From Lachnospiraceae bacterium AC2012 (lineage in GTDB: Bacteria; Bacillota; Clostridia; Lachnospirales; Lachnospiraceae): DNA of 64,000 nucleotides. A program made the translations under genes and the position numbers. Location of the stretch: the NCBI GenBank assembly GCA_000702525.1, contig JNIN01000001.1:1364001-1428000 (forward strand). The letters run 5' to 3'. The notes under the pieces are model-generated. The model saw nothing but the letters and a program-made list of their open reading frames with translations, was not told the DNA's origin and did not search any database. The number at the start of each line of letters is the position of its first letter. The first letter of the stretch is position 1. Below are positions 1,020 through 56,053 of the stretch, in pieces.

Positions 1020-1748
1020 ATGATTCGATTTTTATTGGCTGCTTTAACAGCTGCCTTATTTCTGATTCTAGGCATCCCAGTGCTTATCATCGAATGGATC
1101 ATCGGGAAGTTTAACAAAGACTTCGAAGACCATTCCTCCCTTGCACTTGTCAAAGGTGTCCTACGACTCATCGCCTTTTTCTGTGGTGTAAAGCTCGATG
1201 TGTATGGAGAAGAAAAGATTCCGGAAGACCAGCCGGTACTCTATATCGGAAATCACTTAAGTATCTTCGATGTTATCCTGACATACCCTCTTTGTAAGGG
1301 ACTAACGGGTTATATCTCCAAAGACTCCCTGAAGAAAGTTCCACTTCTTCGCACATGGATGGAGCGTCTACATTGTCTCTTCCTCGATCGAAAAGATCCT
1401 AGAGAAGGTATGAAGATGATTTTAAAGGCCATTGAATATGTGAAGTCCGGCATTTCCATCTTTATCTTCCCAGAGGGAACCAGAAGTCGTGATGGAAAAC
1501 TGGGAGATTTCAAAGCAGGATCCTTCAAGATTGCCAAAAAGACAAATTGCCCTATTGTACCAGTCTGCATCACAAATTCACAGGCGGTATTAGAGCATAT
1601 GCCATTTGTCCGTAGTAAGCATGTCATTATCACATATCTAGATCCCATTGTCCTTAGTGATTTAGATCCGGAAGATCAAAAGCATATCGGAACCTATGTG
1701 CAGAATAAGATTGCAAAACAATTAGAAATAGATGCAAAGCGAATCTAA
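1020..1748 (+). CDS. plsC: 1-acyl-sn-glycerol-3-phosphate acyltransferase
   Basis: Acylates the sn-2 position of lysophosphatidate in membrane phospholipid synthesis, at the inner face of the membrane. The 242-residue protein has an N-terminal hydrophobic segment (residues ~2-25), the acyltransferase H-x4-D motif in NHLSIFD (~residue 78) and the substrate-binding FPEGTRSRDG block (~residue 151). Length is normal for PlsC. GAGG is 8 nt before the ATG. It is transcribed alone and convergently with murF, with a shared terminator. Confidence 0.93.
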   Translation: MIRFLLAALTAALFLILGIPVLIIEWIIGKFNKDFEDHSSLALVKGVLRLIAFFCGVKLDVYGEEKIPEDQPVLYIGNHLSIFDVILTYPLCKGLTGYISKDSLKKVPLLRTWMERLHCLFLDRKDPREGMKMILKAIEYVKSGISIFIFPEGTRSRDGKLGDFKAGSFKIAKKTNCPIVPVCITNSQAVLEHMPFVRSKHVIITYLDPIVLSDLDPEDQKHIGTYVQNKIAKQLEIDAKRI

Positions 1749-19960: not shown

Positions 19961-21982
19961 ATGAAACGTTTATACTTTGTAATCTTACCGTTCACGCTGC
20001 TTCTCTGCTTTCTACTACATAGCCAGGTTGTTCACGCAGCAAATTCCTATATCAAAAATAAGGATTTCTATGTTTATGGCGTCTCACACGATGCGGATAT
20101 CCATTTCCTTACGATTAACGATAACCTGGATACCGTGGTCAATGATCATGCCTGGACTGGCGGTGGCGAAATCACCTATGAATGGGTCGATGCCACCTCT
20201 ATTCTTGTGCATATGATCAATGTCGATTGCCACAAATACACGCCGTGGATTTATATACATGTTCCGGACATGCAGGGGTATCATTTCAAGCAATCCATCT
20301 TTGGCGAATGGACCGGTACCGGATGCGCCGGTACAGCAGCACATTACACGGGCGCTGCATATATCATGGACGCAACCGTTCAGCAATATATCGGTGCACA
20401 ATTCGGATACTCCTCCGTAACATTTCTTCGTGAACCGAACACTTACTACATCCATTATGATGGCAATGGCAACACCTCCGGCACGATGGATTTGCAGAGT
20501 GCGACCTATGACCAGGCGGTAAACCTGCTGCCAAACGCGTATACCAAATCGATTTCCTGCAGCTTCCAAACAAACGGCGGCAGCGCTGTCTCTGCGATTT
20601 CTGGAAATGCAACATTTCTACACTGGACACGGGATCATCAGACATACTCCCCTGGAAGTCCGGTTCTAAATCTATCGTCCGTCAACGGAGATGTGATCCA
20701 ATTTCAGGCGGTTTGGGGAAATACGACCATCACCTTACCGGCAACGAATCGCACGGGATATCGCTTTAGCGGCTGGTACGACGCCTCTGGGCGCTTCGTC
20801 GGAAATGCCGGAACAAGGTATGCCTTTAGCGAAAACACCGATCTCTACGCCCGCTGGACGCCAATTAACTACTCCATCACCTATCATTCTAATGGGGTGG
20901 GGGACAGCAACGTATATAAGCAAACGCTGACCTATGATACGACAGATTCCATCCAAAATCCGATGTTCTCACAAGCCGGTTTTGTCTTCCTACATTGGAA
21001 CACCTCTCCGGATGGCACCGGTCAGACTTACAACGTTGGACAAACGATCCGAAACCTCTATAGCACGGAAGGTCAAAACCTCGACCTCTATGCCATTTGG
21101 GATACCGATTTCACTTTGCAACTGAATGGAAATGGCGTCGCACTCGGTGACGGTAAGACTGATATTTTCATGGAACATGTAAATAACGAGACAACGCTTC
21201 CTGAATATTGTTTTGGCATGGAAAATTATTCGCAACAAGGCTGGTCACTAAACCCATCCGACTTCTATTACGACGATACCGTCTACTACGTCGAGGATTC
21301 CATCCATAAGTACCACTCGTCCGCAGCTGCATTTCTATTAAATGTCATCCATACGCGTCCGGATCTCGTATCGGTCGACGAAAGCGGTTGTGTCACCGTC
21401 CTGATGTACGCTATCTGGGATGAATTCCCGTCCATCGAGGCATCGGACATCTACCTGACATCCGATGAGCTCGCAGCATTGTCGGAGTCCGACTTAATAG
21501 AAATGTTACTGGACAGCTCCCATGTAACCATCGCCGACCGCGAGGATGCCAGCGATCCTACACAAGTTTCCAACTGGAACCGCGATAACATCCCACTGCA
21601 AGAAGTCTCGATCTACCATTGCGATTGGGAATATCTAAGATCGATTGGAGCAACCAGTGCCGCGGGCAATCCGGCAGCAAACACTGAAACCGATACGGAG
21701 ATTGATTCTGCCGAAAATAGTAAACAAGTCCGCGAATCTGGTGCCACTACTGTCACCTATCGCGTGGTTGATTTCTGTGATAATGTAACAGAATGCAATA
21801 TCTTCATCACTGTAACATCTTCGAATCCAGTTCATTCCAGTGCCTATGACGGTGCACTTACACCCATCTATGCAAGATACATCTCGATGGACTACCTAGA
21901 TACTCTGGATCGCACTTCCAAATGGGTACTTGATGATGCCTACAAAAGAATGCTAAACAAAGCTCTTGGTTGCTATCAGTAA
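19961..21982 (+). CDS. Secreted protein with InlB B-repeat-like modules
   Basis: A 673-residue exported protein. The signal peptide (MKRLYFVILPFTLLLCFLLH, cleavage near VHA at ~26) leads into a region of unknown fold, then at least three modules of the Listeria/Bacteroides (InlB B) repeat type at ~200-385: TFLHWTRD...FQAVW, YRFSGWYD...LYARW, FVFLHWNT...LYAIW. A later stretch ends in VTYRVVDFCDNVTECNIFI, and the C-terminus is a plain DDAYKRMLNKALGCYQ. No LPxTG sortase motif or C-terminal anchor is visible, so it is probably released or held by its partner at 19263. GGGGG lies 7 nt upstream. Role unknown; adhesion is a guess from repeat type. Confidence 0.7.
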   Translation: MKRLYFVILPFTLLLCFLLHSQVVHAANSYIKNKDFYVYGVSHDADIHFLTINDNLDTVVNDHAWTGGGEITYEWVDATSILVHMINVDCHKYTPWIYIHVPDMQGYHFKQSIFGEWTGTGCAGTAAHYTGAAYIMDATVQQYIGAQFGYSSVTFLREPNTYYIHYDGNGNTSGTMDLQSATYDQAVNLLPNAYTKSISCSFQTNGGSAVSAISGNATFLHWTRDHQTYSPGSPVLNLSSVNGDVIQFQAVWGNTTITLPATNRTGYRFSGWYDASGRFVGNAGTRYAFSENTDLYARWTPINYSITYHSNGVGDSNVYKQTLTYDTTDSIQNPMFSQAGFVFLHWNTSPDGTGQTYNVGQTIRNLYSTEGQNLDLYAIWDTDFTLQLNGNGVALGDGKTDIFMEHVNNETTLPEYCFGMENYSQQGWSLNPSDFYYDDTVYYVEDSIHKYHSSAAAFLLNVIHTRPDLVSVDESGCVTVLMYAIWDEFPSIEASDIYLTSDELAALSESDLIEMLLDSSHVTIADREDASDPTQVSNWNRDNIPLQEVSIYHCDWEYLRSIGATSAAGNPAANTETDTEIDSAENSKQVRESGATTVTYRVVDFCDNVTECNIFITVTSSNPVHSSAYDGALTPIYARYISMDYLDTLDRTSKWVLDDAYKRMLNKALGCYQ

Positions 21983-21984
21983 TG

Positions 21985-22020
21985 TAGTTGTTTATATAGT
22001 TGTTTATATAGTTGTTTATA
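21985..22020. repeat. Three tandem copies of a 12-bp unit
   Basis: TAGTTGTTTATA occurs three times head to tail directly after the stop of the secreted protein gene. Further short repeats (GTTCTTGAC and AAGGGGTACA) follow up to 22140. Confidence 0.9.
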
Positions 22021-22130
22021 CAATAACTTCTTAGATAGGGTTTACATGGTTCTTGGAGGGGATAGTTCTTGACGGTACGGTTCTTGACGATACAGTTTTA
22101 AGGGGTACAAATCCTGAAGGATATAGCTCT

Positions 22131-22168
22131 AAGGGGTACAGAAAGCAAATTTGCTTTCTGTACCCCTT
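22131..22168. repeat. Perfect 38-bp palindrome
   Basis: The 38 bases are fully self-complementary: AAGGGGTACAGAAAGCAAA and its reverse complement with no central loop. On the plus strand it is followed by ACTTTATTTCC, so it could end transcription of the secreted-protein operon. It borders the 52-bp repeat array. Confidence 0.85.
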
Positions 22169-22183
22169 ACTTTATTTCCTTTT

Positions 22184-22943
22184 GGTGCATGAAACTTGAT
22201 TTCTTCTTCTCTACACCTGTTTTACGCCTTCCCTTGGTGCACAGAACTTAATTTCTTCTTCCCTACACCTGCTTTCTCACTTTCCTTGGTGCACAGAACT
22301 TAATTTCTTCTTCTCTACACCTCTTTACCGACTTCCCTTGGTGCACAGAATTTGATTTCTTCTTTTCTACACCTGTTTTACGCCTTTCCTTGGTGCACAG
22401 AACTTGTTTTCTTCTTCTCTACACCAGCTTGTCGCCTTTCCTTGGTGCACAGAACTTGATTTCTTCTTTTTCTACACCTCTTTGTTCGCTTTCCTTGGTG
22501 CACAGAACTTGATTTCTTCTTCTCTACACCAGCTTGTCGCTTTCCGATGGTGCACAGCTTAAGAAATCTCTTTCTCTACACCATCCTCGGCGCTTTTCTT
22601 GGTGCACGGATCAAGAAATCTCTTCCTCTGCACCATCCTCGCCGCTTTTCTTGGTGCACAAATTAAGAAATTTCTTCCTCTGCACCATCCTCGCCGCTTT
22701 CCTTGGTGCACAGCTTAAGAAATCTCTTTCTCTACACCATCCTCGGCGCTTTTCTTGGTGTGCAAATTAAGAAATCTCTTCCTCTACACCTGTTATGTAT
22801 TCAAGTTACTGTACTGCCCGCAATTTCTTCCTCCGTACAGTACTTCCAAGTTCAATCCTACTGTACTACTAACAATTCCTTCCTCCGTACAATAAATTCA
22901 AGTTCAATCCTACTGTACTGCCCGCATTTTCTCCCTCCGCACA
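22184..22943. repeat. Array of fifteen 52-bp stem-loop units (non-coding)
   Basis: Twelve units start with GGTGCA or GGTGTG at 22184, 22236, 22288, 22340, 22392, 22444, 22497, 22549, 22601, 22653, 22705 and 22757, a spacing of exactly 52 except one step of 53. Each ends its 34-bp core with TACACC or TGCACC, so the core is an imperfect inverted repeat. Three further units starting at 22808, 22860 and 22912 keep the 52-bp period and the CTTCCTC core but have other stems, ACTGTAC and GTACAGT. Because 52 is not a multiple of three, the reading frame changes each unit, so this is not a repeat protein gene. No cas genes, and the between-core segments (18 bp) are too short and too similar for CRISPR spacers. 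Confidence 0.85.
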
Positions 22944-22957
22944 GTAAATTCAATAAA

Positions 22958-22996
22958 AAATGCCCATGTTACCTCACACCAGTAACATGGGCATTT
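22958..22996. terminator. Terminator after the HD-GYP operon
   Basis: Fifteen-base perfect arms 22958-22972 and 22982-22996 (AAATGCCCATGTTAC and its complement) around a 9-nt loop, with A-rich and T-rich flanks. It separates the leftward operon from the repeat array. Confidence 0.85.
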
Positions 22997-23046
22997 CCCT
23001 CTCTTTATTTCTCTCAATCAGCCGACTTCAAACCCGAATCTGACTC

Positions 23047-24207
23047 CTAATCTGCTTCCGACTCCAAACCAGACTCCAAATCCAGCTCCGAATCCGCCAG
23101 CTCCGAATCCGAATTCAGCCCCGACTCCGCAGACTCCTCAACATCCGCAGACTCCTCAACCTCCGCCGGCTCCAAGTCCTTTCCTTCAAGAAACACCTTA
23201 TCATATCCCACAATCGTGATATTATAAGTATTTCTATCCTTGGCGAGATCCAGGATTGTTTTATCTTCCAACATAACCACCGGGCGAAGCACGGACTTCG
23301 CACGATTCTTAATAACTCGGGCTTTTTGTCCGGTAGATAGCATCACATCCGTGCCGACCGGGTAAATTGTCAAATAGTGTATAAAGTTTTCAACGATGTG
23401 AAGGTCAAACATCGTTCCACTATTTGCCATCAGATATTCTACGCACTCCTTCGGGTCGTAGTCCTCCTTATACGCACGCTTTTGACACATCGCATCATAG
23501 ACATCTGCTACATGTATAATTCGCGCATAGAGTGGAATTCGGTCTCCCTGAATTCCTCTTGGGTATCCTGATCCATCCCAGTTTTCGTGATGAAGCAGGA
23601 TTCCCATACGTGCTCTGGTTGTAATCGCCGGATTATCATACATCATATTGTATCCGATTGCCGGATGCTGATTGATAATCTCGCGTTCTTCCGGCGTCAG
23701 TTTTCCCGGCTTATCGAGAATCTCCCGATTAATACCGCGTTTTCCGATGTCATGAAGCATCGCCGATGCACATAATTCCTGCAAATCGTAGTTATTCATA
23801 CCCAAGCCGATTCCGCAAGTCGTAGCCAGCATCGCAACATTCAGCGAATGTGCATAGGTGTCATTGTGATAGATTTTCAAATCTTTGAAATCAATCATCA
23901 ACTCCTCTACCGAAAGCAACTGCTCGGTAATCTCCGTAGAGAGATACAAGACACGATCAATATTCATCGTCTTCAGCGCATTCATCGCTTCCAGTCTTGT
24001 CTTCTCATCGAGGATTTCTGTGAGATCCTCATATTCAGAATACTCATCATAGATATACAGCCCTGGAAATTCCATAATCATCAACTGTTTGATAATTCCC
24101 GCTGTCAATTCGTGGTTTGCAGCAAGCAAACACACGCCCCTCTTATCATATATACTTTTCAGTGAAATCATTCCTGGCTTCAACGCCCCTGATTGTACAT
24201 ATTTCAT
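23047..24207 (-). CDS. HD-GYP domain protein with acidic repeat tail
   Basis: A 386-residue putative cyclic-di-GMP phosphodiesterase. Residues ~1-110 are a helical N-terminal sensor-like part (YVQSGALKPGMISLKSIYD); ~120-290 is the HD-GYP domain with HDIGKRGINREIL, PGKLTPEEREIINQHP and HHENWDGSGYPRG. The metal-binding HD and the GYP motif look intact. The last ~40 residues are an acidic, repetitive tail (EESADVEESAES, then SELADSELDLESGLES), not part of the family. It starts 12 nt after the ATPase gene stop, so it belongs to the same operon as the Rae1-fusion gene. Whether it acts on c-di-GMP or another nucleotide is not shown. Confidence 0.85.
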   Translation of the reverse strand: MKYVQSGALKPGMISLKSIYDKRGVCLLAANHELTAGIIKQLMIMEFPGLYIYDEYSEYEDLTEILDEKTRLEAMNALKTMNIDRVLYLSTEITEQLLSVEELMIDFKDLKIYHNDTYAHSLNVAMLATTCGIGLGMNNYDLQELCASAMLHDIGKRGINREILDKPGKLTPEEREIINQHPAIGYNMMYDNPAITTRARMGILLHHENWDGSGYPRGIQGDRIPLYARIIHVADVYDAMCQKRAYKEDYDPKECVEYLMANSGTMFDLHIVENFIHYLTIYPVGTDVMLSTGQKARVIKNRAKSVLRPVVMLEDKTILDLAKDRNTYNITIVGYDKVFLEGKDLEPAEVEESADVEESAESGLNSDSELADSELDLESGLESEAD

Positions 24208-55952: not shown

Positions 55953-56053
55953 TCCTCTTATTGTTCGAATTTCGCTCAGGTTGGCACCTTCCTCTGACGG
56001 GGTTGCCGTGGTTTCACAGATCCTATGTATCTCCACCACTCTGAATAAGAGAA
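55953..56053 (-). ncRNA. SAM-I (S-box) riboswitch
   Basis: On the minus strand the S-box core is complete: P1 strand CTCTTATT (56051-56044) closing with AATAAGAG (55962-55955), the CAGAGTGGTGGAGA start of P2, CTGTGAAACCACGGCAACC around P3, AAGGTGCCAA and the AGCGAA turn before the last P1 strand. Binding SAM would favour the terminator at 55902-55931 and so reduce metK. Confidence 0.95.

Follow-up and report, generated by a model that had tools for sequence, protein, structure and literature searches.

Iterons are phased repeats, about two helical turns long, which lie upstream of the gene of a plasmid replication initiator and are bound by the product of that gene. In REP/RAYT systems, as parts of PMC2817692 describe them, the gene of an enzyme stands beside its own palindromic repeats, the repeats and the enzyme co-evolve, and the RAYT has diverged more than its neighbours. 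The same parts of that account report many gene-free copies, mostly extragenic and in alternating orientation, as well as hybrid arrays from two families, and the RAYT transposases are proposed there to spread the REP/BIME repeats (PMC2817692). Type III toxin-antitoxin systems (ToxIN, CptIN, and TenpIN), of which CptIN is known from Eubacterium rectale, carry tandem repeats upstream of a nuclease-type gene; according to sections of PMC4627078, their toxins are ribonucleases of a family other than the one reported here and their repeats give RNA pseudoknots of 36-45 nt. In TIGR-Tas systems, a tandem array lies beside a single effector gene and the repeats differ between loci, with a Nop-domain Tas protein and variable spacers, as set out in part of PMC12045711.

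The arrays described here share features with each of these systems. Like REP/RAYT, they combine a nuclease gene located by its own repeats with gene-free related copies (for 9 of 11 arrays) that are mostly extragenic, two-family hybrids, arms that follow the nuclease family (weakly overall), and a nuclease which has diverged beyond its flanks. Unlike RAYT, the enzyme appears from its profile matches to be of the PD-(D/E)XK type and not an IS200/IS605 tyrosine transposase, and no transposase family was found among the Pfam matches up to E 1 for the 265-aa protein. REP/RAYT loci have two-sided inverted repeats, whereas the arrays here lie mostly upstream of the gene (76 versus 11 of 127 loci), L183 having them on both sides, and they differ from REP in their whole-turn unit lengths and in having no GTAG head. 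The tandem repeats directly upstream of the gene, at 76 of 127 loci, recall type III toxin-antitoxin systems, but the whole-turn DNA phasing and the many gene-free arrays do not, and no ToxN/CptN/TenpN-type toxin family was present among the Pfam or NCBIfam matches up to E 1. As in TIGR-Tas, a tandem array with locus-specific repeat sequences accompanies a single gene; in contrast to TIGR-Tas and CRISPR, the arrays contain no variable spacers, and the Nop family was absent from the Pfam matches up to E 1 for the 265-aa protein. Iterons are likewise phased repeats upstream of a gene, but the units here are longer than about two turns and the gene encodes a nuclease instead of an initiator. Our literature search, with preprints and most subscription papers outside its scope and thus weak as evidence of absence, yielded no description of the system. 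The frequent neighbourhood of array and nuclease gene and the spacing of the units by whole turns suggest a system of enzyme and repeats that has not been described.

A 52-bp inverted-repeat array between two convergent genes

The window, a stretch of 64,000 nucleotides (C1:1364001-1428000) of the 2.55-Mb, two-contig genome of Lachnospiraceae bacterium AC2012 (G000), contained a 52-bp stem-loop array of 12 units with the arms GGTGYA..TRCACC (family A) and three units with the arms CTGTRC..GTACAG (family B), as listed in Table 1. Adjacent A units were 52 bp apart in ten steps and 53 bp in one, the B units were 52 bp apart, and the step at the switch from A to B was 50 bp; the 52-bp period was recovered independently by TRF. 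The fifteen stem-loops at a period of about 52 bp, with a step of about 49-51 bp at the family switch, which had been noticed in an earlier sequence-only reading, were thus real. The unit motifs proposed in that reading stood in part: GGTGCA..TACACC fitted exactly in 9 of the 12 A units (expectation from 100 shuffles, 0.02), the other three being TGCACC or GGTGTG variants, and the perfect ACTGTAC..GTACAGT was present in one of the three B units, the other two deviating from it. Since 52 is not a multiple of three, a repeat protein was rightly ruled out. The view that the array belongs to no known RNA or repeat class was also upheld: no Rfam family reached its gathering score over the window array, and variable spacers were absent, the loops and linkers recurring inside an array. 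Measured from center to center, the arms were separated by 28 and 24 bp in A and by 26 and 26 bp in B, which also allows a reading as half-sites in alternation.

Two genes converge on the array, which lies between their terminator-like hairpins. Immediately after the 673-aa open reading frame, TAGTTGTTTATA occurs in three perfect copies (21985-22020), and a SAM riboswitch is located on the minus strand of the window at 55955-56051. In three arrays, the array arms were seen inside the terminal terminator-like hairpins or half-sites (window 22133-22166, C1:1346098-1346131, and C1:1292669-1292702), which are separated from the next unit by 51-53 bp, so that the terminator looks like a first unit.

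Table 1. Features of the window array and its surroundings, with a repeat adjoining other arrays of the genome
Feature	Position	Strand	Remarks
673-aa ORF with Flg_new repeats	19961..21982	+	convergent with the HD-domain gene
Terminator-like perfect hairpin 3' of the 673-aa ORF	22130..22169	+	GGGGTACAG core, 51 bp before the first A unit
Whole array, 12 A and 3 B units	22184..22962		
Family A, twelve 52-bp units, inverted arms GGTGYA / TRCACC	22184..22790	- (purine-rich strand)	unit calls, TRF; model R1; starts 22184, 22236, 22288, 22340, 22392, 22444, 22497, 22549, 22601, 22653, 22705, 22757
Family B, three 52-bp units, inverted arms CTGTRC / GTRCAG	22807..22962	-	unit calls; model R2; starts 22807, 22859, 22911
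Terminator-like hairpin of the HD-domain gene, other array end	22955..22999	-	
386-aa HD-domain (HD-GYP-like) protein gene	23047..24207	-	orthologous pair in G003 without an array between
MITE-like inverted repeat	L005 about 1060-1200 and 2258-2370; L007 about 2240-2400; L010 about 1340-1500		

The repeat family in this genome and its relatives

Eight arrays were found in G000, at C1 8.3, 36.3, 204.7, 1292.7, 1299.9, 1323, 1346, and 1386 kb. Covariance models detected 46 A units (47 listed, minus a stray at 113003 with E 0.097) and 28 B units in this genome; set A1 comprised 37 of the 45 collected A units and set A2 comprised 25 of the 27 B units. A MITE-like long inverted repeat (TTATTCCTTTCGGCTTG...CAAGCCGAAAGGAATAA) adjoins three of the eight arrays and lies on both sides of the 1323-kb array. 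A role at the replication origin or terminus was set aside: with dnaA at C1:1630618 and arrays at 8, 36, 205, and 1293-1386 kb on unordered contigs, no fit was seen.

A DNA search of 61 genomes returned G000, the congener G003, and 26 bases in G037 which looked coding by eye. With the A model, the search of 200 genomes of the family gave G000 and one weak match in G214 (E 2e-4). Among four genomes of the genus, G003 carried a three-unit A array, G001 a single match (E 0.06) in apparently coding sequence, and G002 none, while B units were confined to G000. A pattern scan of a named genome collection, which may omit records of G000 or its near relatives, gave six single matches in unrelated organisms, four of them Thermus, and the A pattern had 0 matches in viral contigs.

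The home array and its nuclease gene

The sequence-only reading overlooked that the array in the window is evidently a dispersed copy of the home array of a nuclease cassette, and that the informative copy lies 1.18 Mb away, beside the nuclease gene. The home B array of G000 (204.7 kb) immediately precedes the gene (C1:204996-205793) of a 265-aa nuclease that appears to be of the PD-(D/E)XK type. The A array of G003 occupies the same place in the same orientation, between the RlmD-like methyltransferase gene and the 265-269 aa gene. In G001, the homologous gene (30% identity) had a different tandem inverted-repeat array directly upstream, with a period of 73 and the arms GCAATG/CATTGC. Close to its end, the RlmD-like gene of G003 carries a 26-bp tandem repeat (TACGAACTACTTCTTTATTTACATTG; L064 1789-1865), of which G000 has fewer copies.

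The 265-aa protein matched no Pfam or NCBIfam family over the cut-off. Its C-terminal nuclease domain (residues about 147-262) matched the PADLOC PD-(D/E)XK profiles HEAT_CxxC_PDDEXK (E 1.3e-7) and the C-terminus of PDC-S68 (E 7e-26), which have the same nuclease domain with N-terminal parts that are much longer or different. The predicted structure (pLDDT 93.6) consisted of a helix, three strands, and a helix, followed by the nuclease domain, and the nearest solved folds had modest scores (DrdV, E 0.025, prob 0.98; Bax1, Z 7.8, under 8, rmsd 2.9, 98 aligned residues). The residues S158, K159, E161, E178, D192, F193, E207, H208, and G210 were invariant in all 140 of the 140 proteins of at least 240 aa, including the catalytic-type residues E161, D192, E207, and H208; the lysine two places after E207 was not conserved. 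For the N-terminal domain, no clear known DNA-binding fold was found, the best rows being prefoldin-like (Z 7.7, rmsd 10) and Foldseek returning none at E 0.001.

Association of arrays with the nuclease family across Clostridia

Homologues of the nuclease were present in 98 of 299 genomes of the family, with as many as seven matches in one genome. In the class, 27 of 391 genomes had homologues at E 1e-20, and full-length members came from at least four families besides this one. We read 151 nuclease gene loci, 127 of which had at least 600 bp on both sides, using one genome per species; the start codons were placed by homology, the arrays were detected by TRF, which misses degenerate arrays, and the statistical tests were corrected for kinship only roughly. 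A tandem array with a period of at least 30 bp lay within 1 kb upstream at 79 and downstream at 23 of the 127 loci. For periods of 45-130 bp, the numbers were 76 upstream and 11 downstream, and arrays of this class with a perfect inverted repeat of at least 6 bp in the unit were found 58 times upstream and 6 times downstream, a criterion also reached by 68 of 405 shuffled units. Ten loci were also read in other families of the class; arrays were present at six, with periods of 53, 53, 73, 83, 84, and 125 bp. At L183, a single nuclease gene was flanked on both sides by 53-bp arrays with related arms (gene-oriented 167-1085 and 2373-2858), a layout closer to the two-sided one of REP/RAYT.

The sequences of the arms differed from locus to locus. 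In close pairs they clearly followed the protein family; over all pairs, the agreement was weak (Mantel r 0.17, P 0.0005, n=65). Close proteins sharing arms were L202/L216/L218 (GATGC, periods 62 and 73), L269/L158 (CATTGC), and L163/L165 (TACGTA), while other close pairs, such as L167/L190, had no common arms. With the nuclease profile, 0 relatives were found in viral contigs. Plasmid matches came from five records, none covering 80% of the protein and with ATPase or helicase annotations, and phage matches from three unannotated faecal scaffolds, two of which were examined and held no tandem arrays.

Unit lengths follow whole helical turns

Among the best arrays of each locus (n=90), 30 had units of 51-54 bp, 21 of 61-66 bp, and 28 of 70-75 bp, followed by 83, 85, 94, 94, 104, 115, and 147 bp; the only lengths outside these classes were 56 bp and, below them, 30, 39, and 41 bp. 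Tested at 10.5 bp, the 86 arrays with units of 40-110 bp gave a resultant length (R) of 0.795 with a mean phase of 0.01. When one array was taken per 40%-identity protein cluster, R stayed at 0.79 (n=34), with P against a smoothed null of at most 5e-5, and R was 0.75 (n=55) when the 51-54 class was left out. The unit lengths of these 86 nuclease-upstream arrays thus fell on whole multiples of about 10.5 bp, in agreement with the earlier proposal that 52 bp corresponds to five turns of the helix. Neither of the arm-to-arm distances alone fell on whole turns. The shorter distance had class means of 24 to 31 bp and the other side had medians of 28, 34.5, 44, and 65 bp, so the extra turns enter mainly the longer spacer. 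The whole-turn rule is the best evidence for an array acting as duplex DNA, and suggests that proteins would sit side by side on it.

Dispersed copies, empty sites, and possible exchange of the cassette

When genomes were searched with parts of eleven of their own arrays (nine genomes), further copies were found for 9 of the 11. Among the matches listed, and with the home included, the arrays occupied at least 20 (L174), 13 (L214), 10 (L163), 6 (L190), 5 (L255), 4 (L280), 4 (L242), 3 (L186), and 3 (L269) places, counts which were merged by hand and rest in some cases on short or weak matches; the L267 and L169 arrays had the home place only, among the matches listed. One L190 place (G012 C103) is about 3 kb from another copy of the nuclease. 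Twenty gene-free places were examined, chosen from the better matches and not at random; all 20 held an array, the period of which differed from that at home by no more than 1 bp. The home arms or near variants were present in 19 of these 20 copies, L370 being the exception, and the array overlapped an open frame of at least 120 aa in five; no homologue of the nuclease (0 of 20) was present in the fetched stretches. Mosaics of two arm types, like A and B in the window, were also seen in L367 and L368.

Comparison with the sister species G003 showed that all six testable dispersed sites of G000 were empty there, while the gene-linked site held an array in both species. The gene pair around the window array was 1,064 bp apart in G000 and about 60-70 bp apart, as estimated from the alignment, in G003, where no array was present. 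At the five other empty sites, the gaps in G000 and G003 were 656 and 94 bp, 1497 and 156 bp, 1895 and 210 bp, 1455 and 109 bp, and 2099 and 12 bp; the differences exceed the array alone, as with the transporter gene at the last of these sites. A seventh dispersed site (SecA) was not found in G003, the assembly of which is 78% complete.

At the nuclease locus, the flanking proteins of the two species were 99% identical (RlmD 99.2, ZIP 99.6; L059 5854-10989 versus L150), compared with 78-89% for five orthologues elsewhere. The nuclease itself was 70% identical, and the array was of type B in G000 and type A in G003. Similarity between the genomes stopped inside the first A unit, the left part of which is kept in G000, and restarted shortly after the nuclease gene. 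Because both the array and the nuclease differ between near-identical flanks, they were exchanged or diverged as one unit. Flanks at 99%, against 78-89% elsewhere, hint that the region of the cassette was exchanged recently.

Models for the array and the nuclease

Comparison of genomes shows the linkage of array and nuclease, the whole-turn rule, the dispersal, and the empty sites, and also that array and nuclease differ together at one site. From them we infer, with somewhat more belief than doubt, a nuclease with helix-phased binding arrays that spread, in which binding, cutting, and copying would be activities of the system. The catalytic-type residues kept in all 140 proteins, the arms that follow the protein family, and the independent variation of the two arms of A also speak for this model. 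The nuclease would bind the inverted arms in double-stranded DNA, with one dimer per unit, and adjacent dimers would touch along one face of the helix, which would give units of 5, 6, 7, or more whole turns. Cutting by the nuclease would let the arrays spread, intergenic breaks being filled from an existing array by repair synthesis to leave gene-free copies, and this copying would be comparable to that proposed for the RAYT transposases and REP/BIME repeats. The cassette could be swapped for another allele, so that the arm type and the nuclease would change together while older copies remained; A and B would be mixed in G000 because such older copies stay after the exchange.

Several observations run against this model. 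No upstream array of 45-130 bp was present at 51 of the 127 loci, and the arm distances are off whole turns. No known DNA-binding fold is clearly recognizable in the N-terminal domain, and two of the eleven arrays searched were at home only among the matches listed. The Mantel correlation is weak, and the purine bias of the coding strand and its better fold are unaccounted for.

The arrays might instead serve as operator and sink, repressing the nuclease gene and soaking up the enzyme until its release, for example upon phage infection, in which case the copies would be further sinks spread by ordinary recombination. The position of the arrays favors this, as they end at a median of 93 bp before the start codon and within 100 bp in 44 of 83 cases; whole-turn phasing also suits cooperative binding, and the C-terminal domain resembles the profiles of candidate-defence nucleases. 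On its own, however, this explanation accounts for neither the many gene-free copies nor the empty sites, and we consider it rather unlikely.

An RNA system along the lines of type III toxin-antitoxin or TIGR-Tas, in which the array would be transcribed as a leader and cut to hairpin RNAs inhibiting or guiding the nuclease, is improbable. The array does lie upstream of the nuclease gene in the same orientation, and the purine-rich coding strand, seen in 63 of 83 arrays, is the best point in favor of RNA; the fold of the window array was also stronger on the minus strand (z -13.7) than on the plus strand (z -7.4; 20 shuffles each). Against it, whole-turn unit lengths have no obvious RNA reason and the gene-free copies are many. 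The variable arm pair in A was U-G in 16 units, C-G in 9, C-A in 8, and U-A in 4, so that 8 of 37 A units would carry a C-A mismatch. Among 155 arm pairs (arrays of at least four units, with pairs crossing a unit border skipped), no compensating double change was found, the single double change comparing with 2.56 expected at low power. The arms of A thus vary independently of each other, as expected of half-sites in duplex DNA. A CsrB-like sponge with GGA motifs was also set aside, judged by eye: GGA is to be expected on any strand rich in purines, and the whole-turn phasing speaks for DNA.

That the array is a functionless satellite, expanded neutrally and homogenised by recombination, is very improbable: the most similar units are those within one array, and copy number and type change between species, as it would predict, but the arms were far better kept (identity 0.92 in A and 0.95 in B, versus 0.67 elsewhere in the unit, in standard-length units only, 43 A and 24 B, with columns treated as independent), an inverted repeat of at least 8 bp occurred in 50% of 84 consensus units versus 1% of shuffles, whole-turn lengths held across 34 diverged clusters, and the arrays lie upstream far more often than downstream. 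The sequence-only reading would have taken relatives without anything similar, together with the lack of a transcript or bound protein, as a pointer to such a satellite; instead, the congener carries an A array and 76 of 127 nuclease loci have an upstream array of 45-130 bp.

Implications

If the nuclease binds and spreads its phased arrays, the system would be a new mobile or drive-like element in Clostridia, a description to which we give an even chance. It would consist of a diversifying nuclease allele and its own phased inverted-repeat array, swapped as one cassette and seeding up to dozens of gene-free arrays in the chromosome. Nuclease dimers lined up along one face of the helix would recognize the array in its double-stranded form.

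Our results connect a single conserved nuclease family with intergenic repeats of gut Clostridia that form a large class and had lacked an explanation, and the whole-turn rule is a strong, testable sign that proteins assemble on the DNA. If the arms serve as recognition sites, the specificity of the neighbouring enzyme would be recorded in each home array, making a protein-site code directly testable, and the many different arms over the loci would provide a natural catalogue of specificities in DNA recognition. The system would then be a second example of the REP/RAYT logic, an enzyme with scattered repeats, built on an unrelated enzyme.
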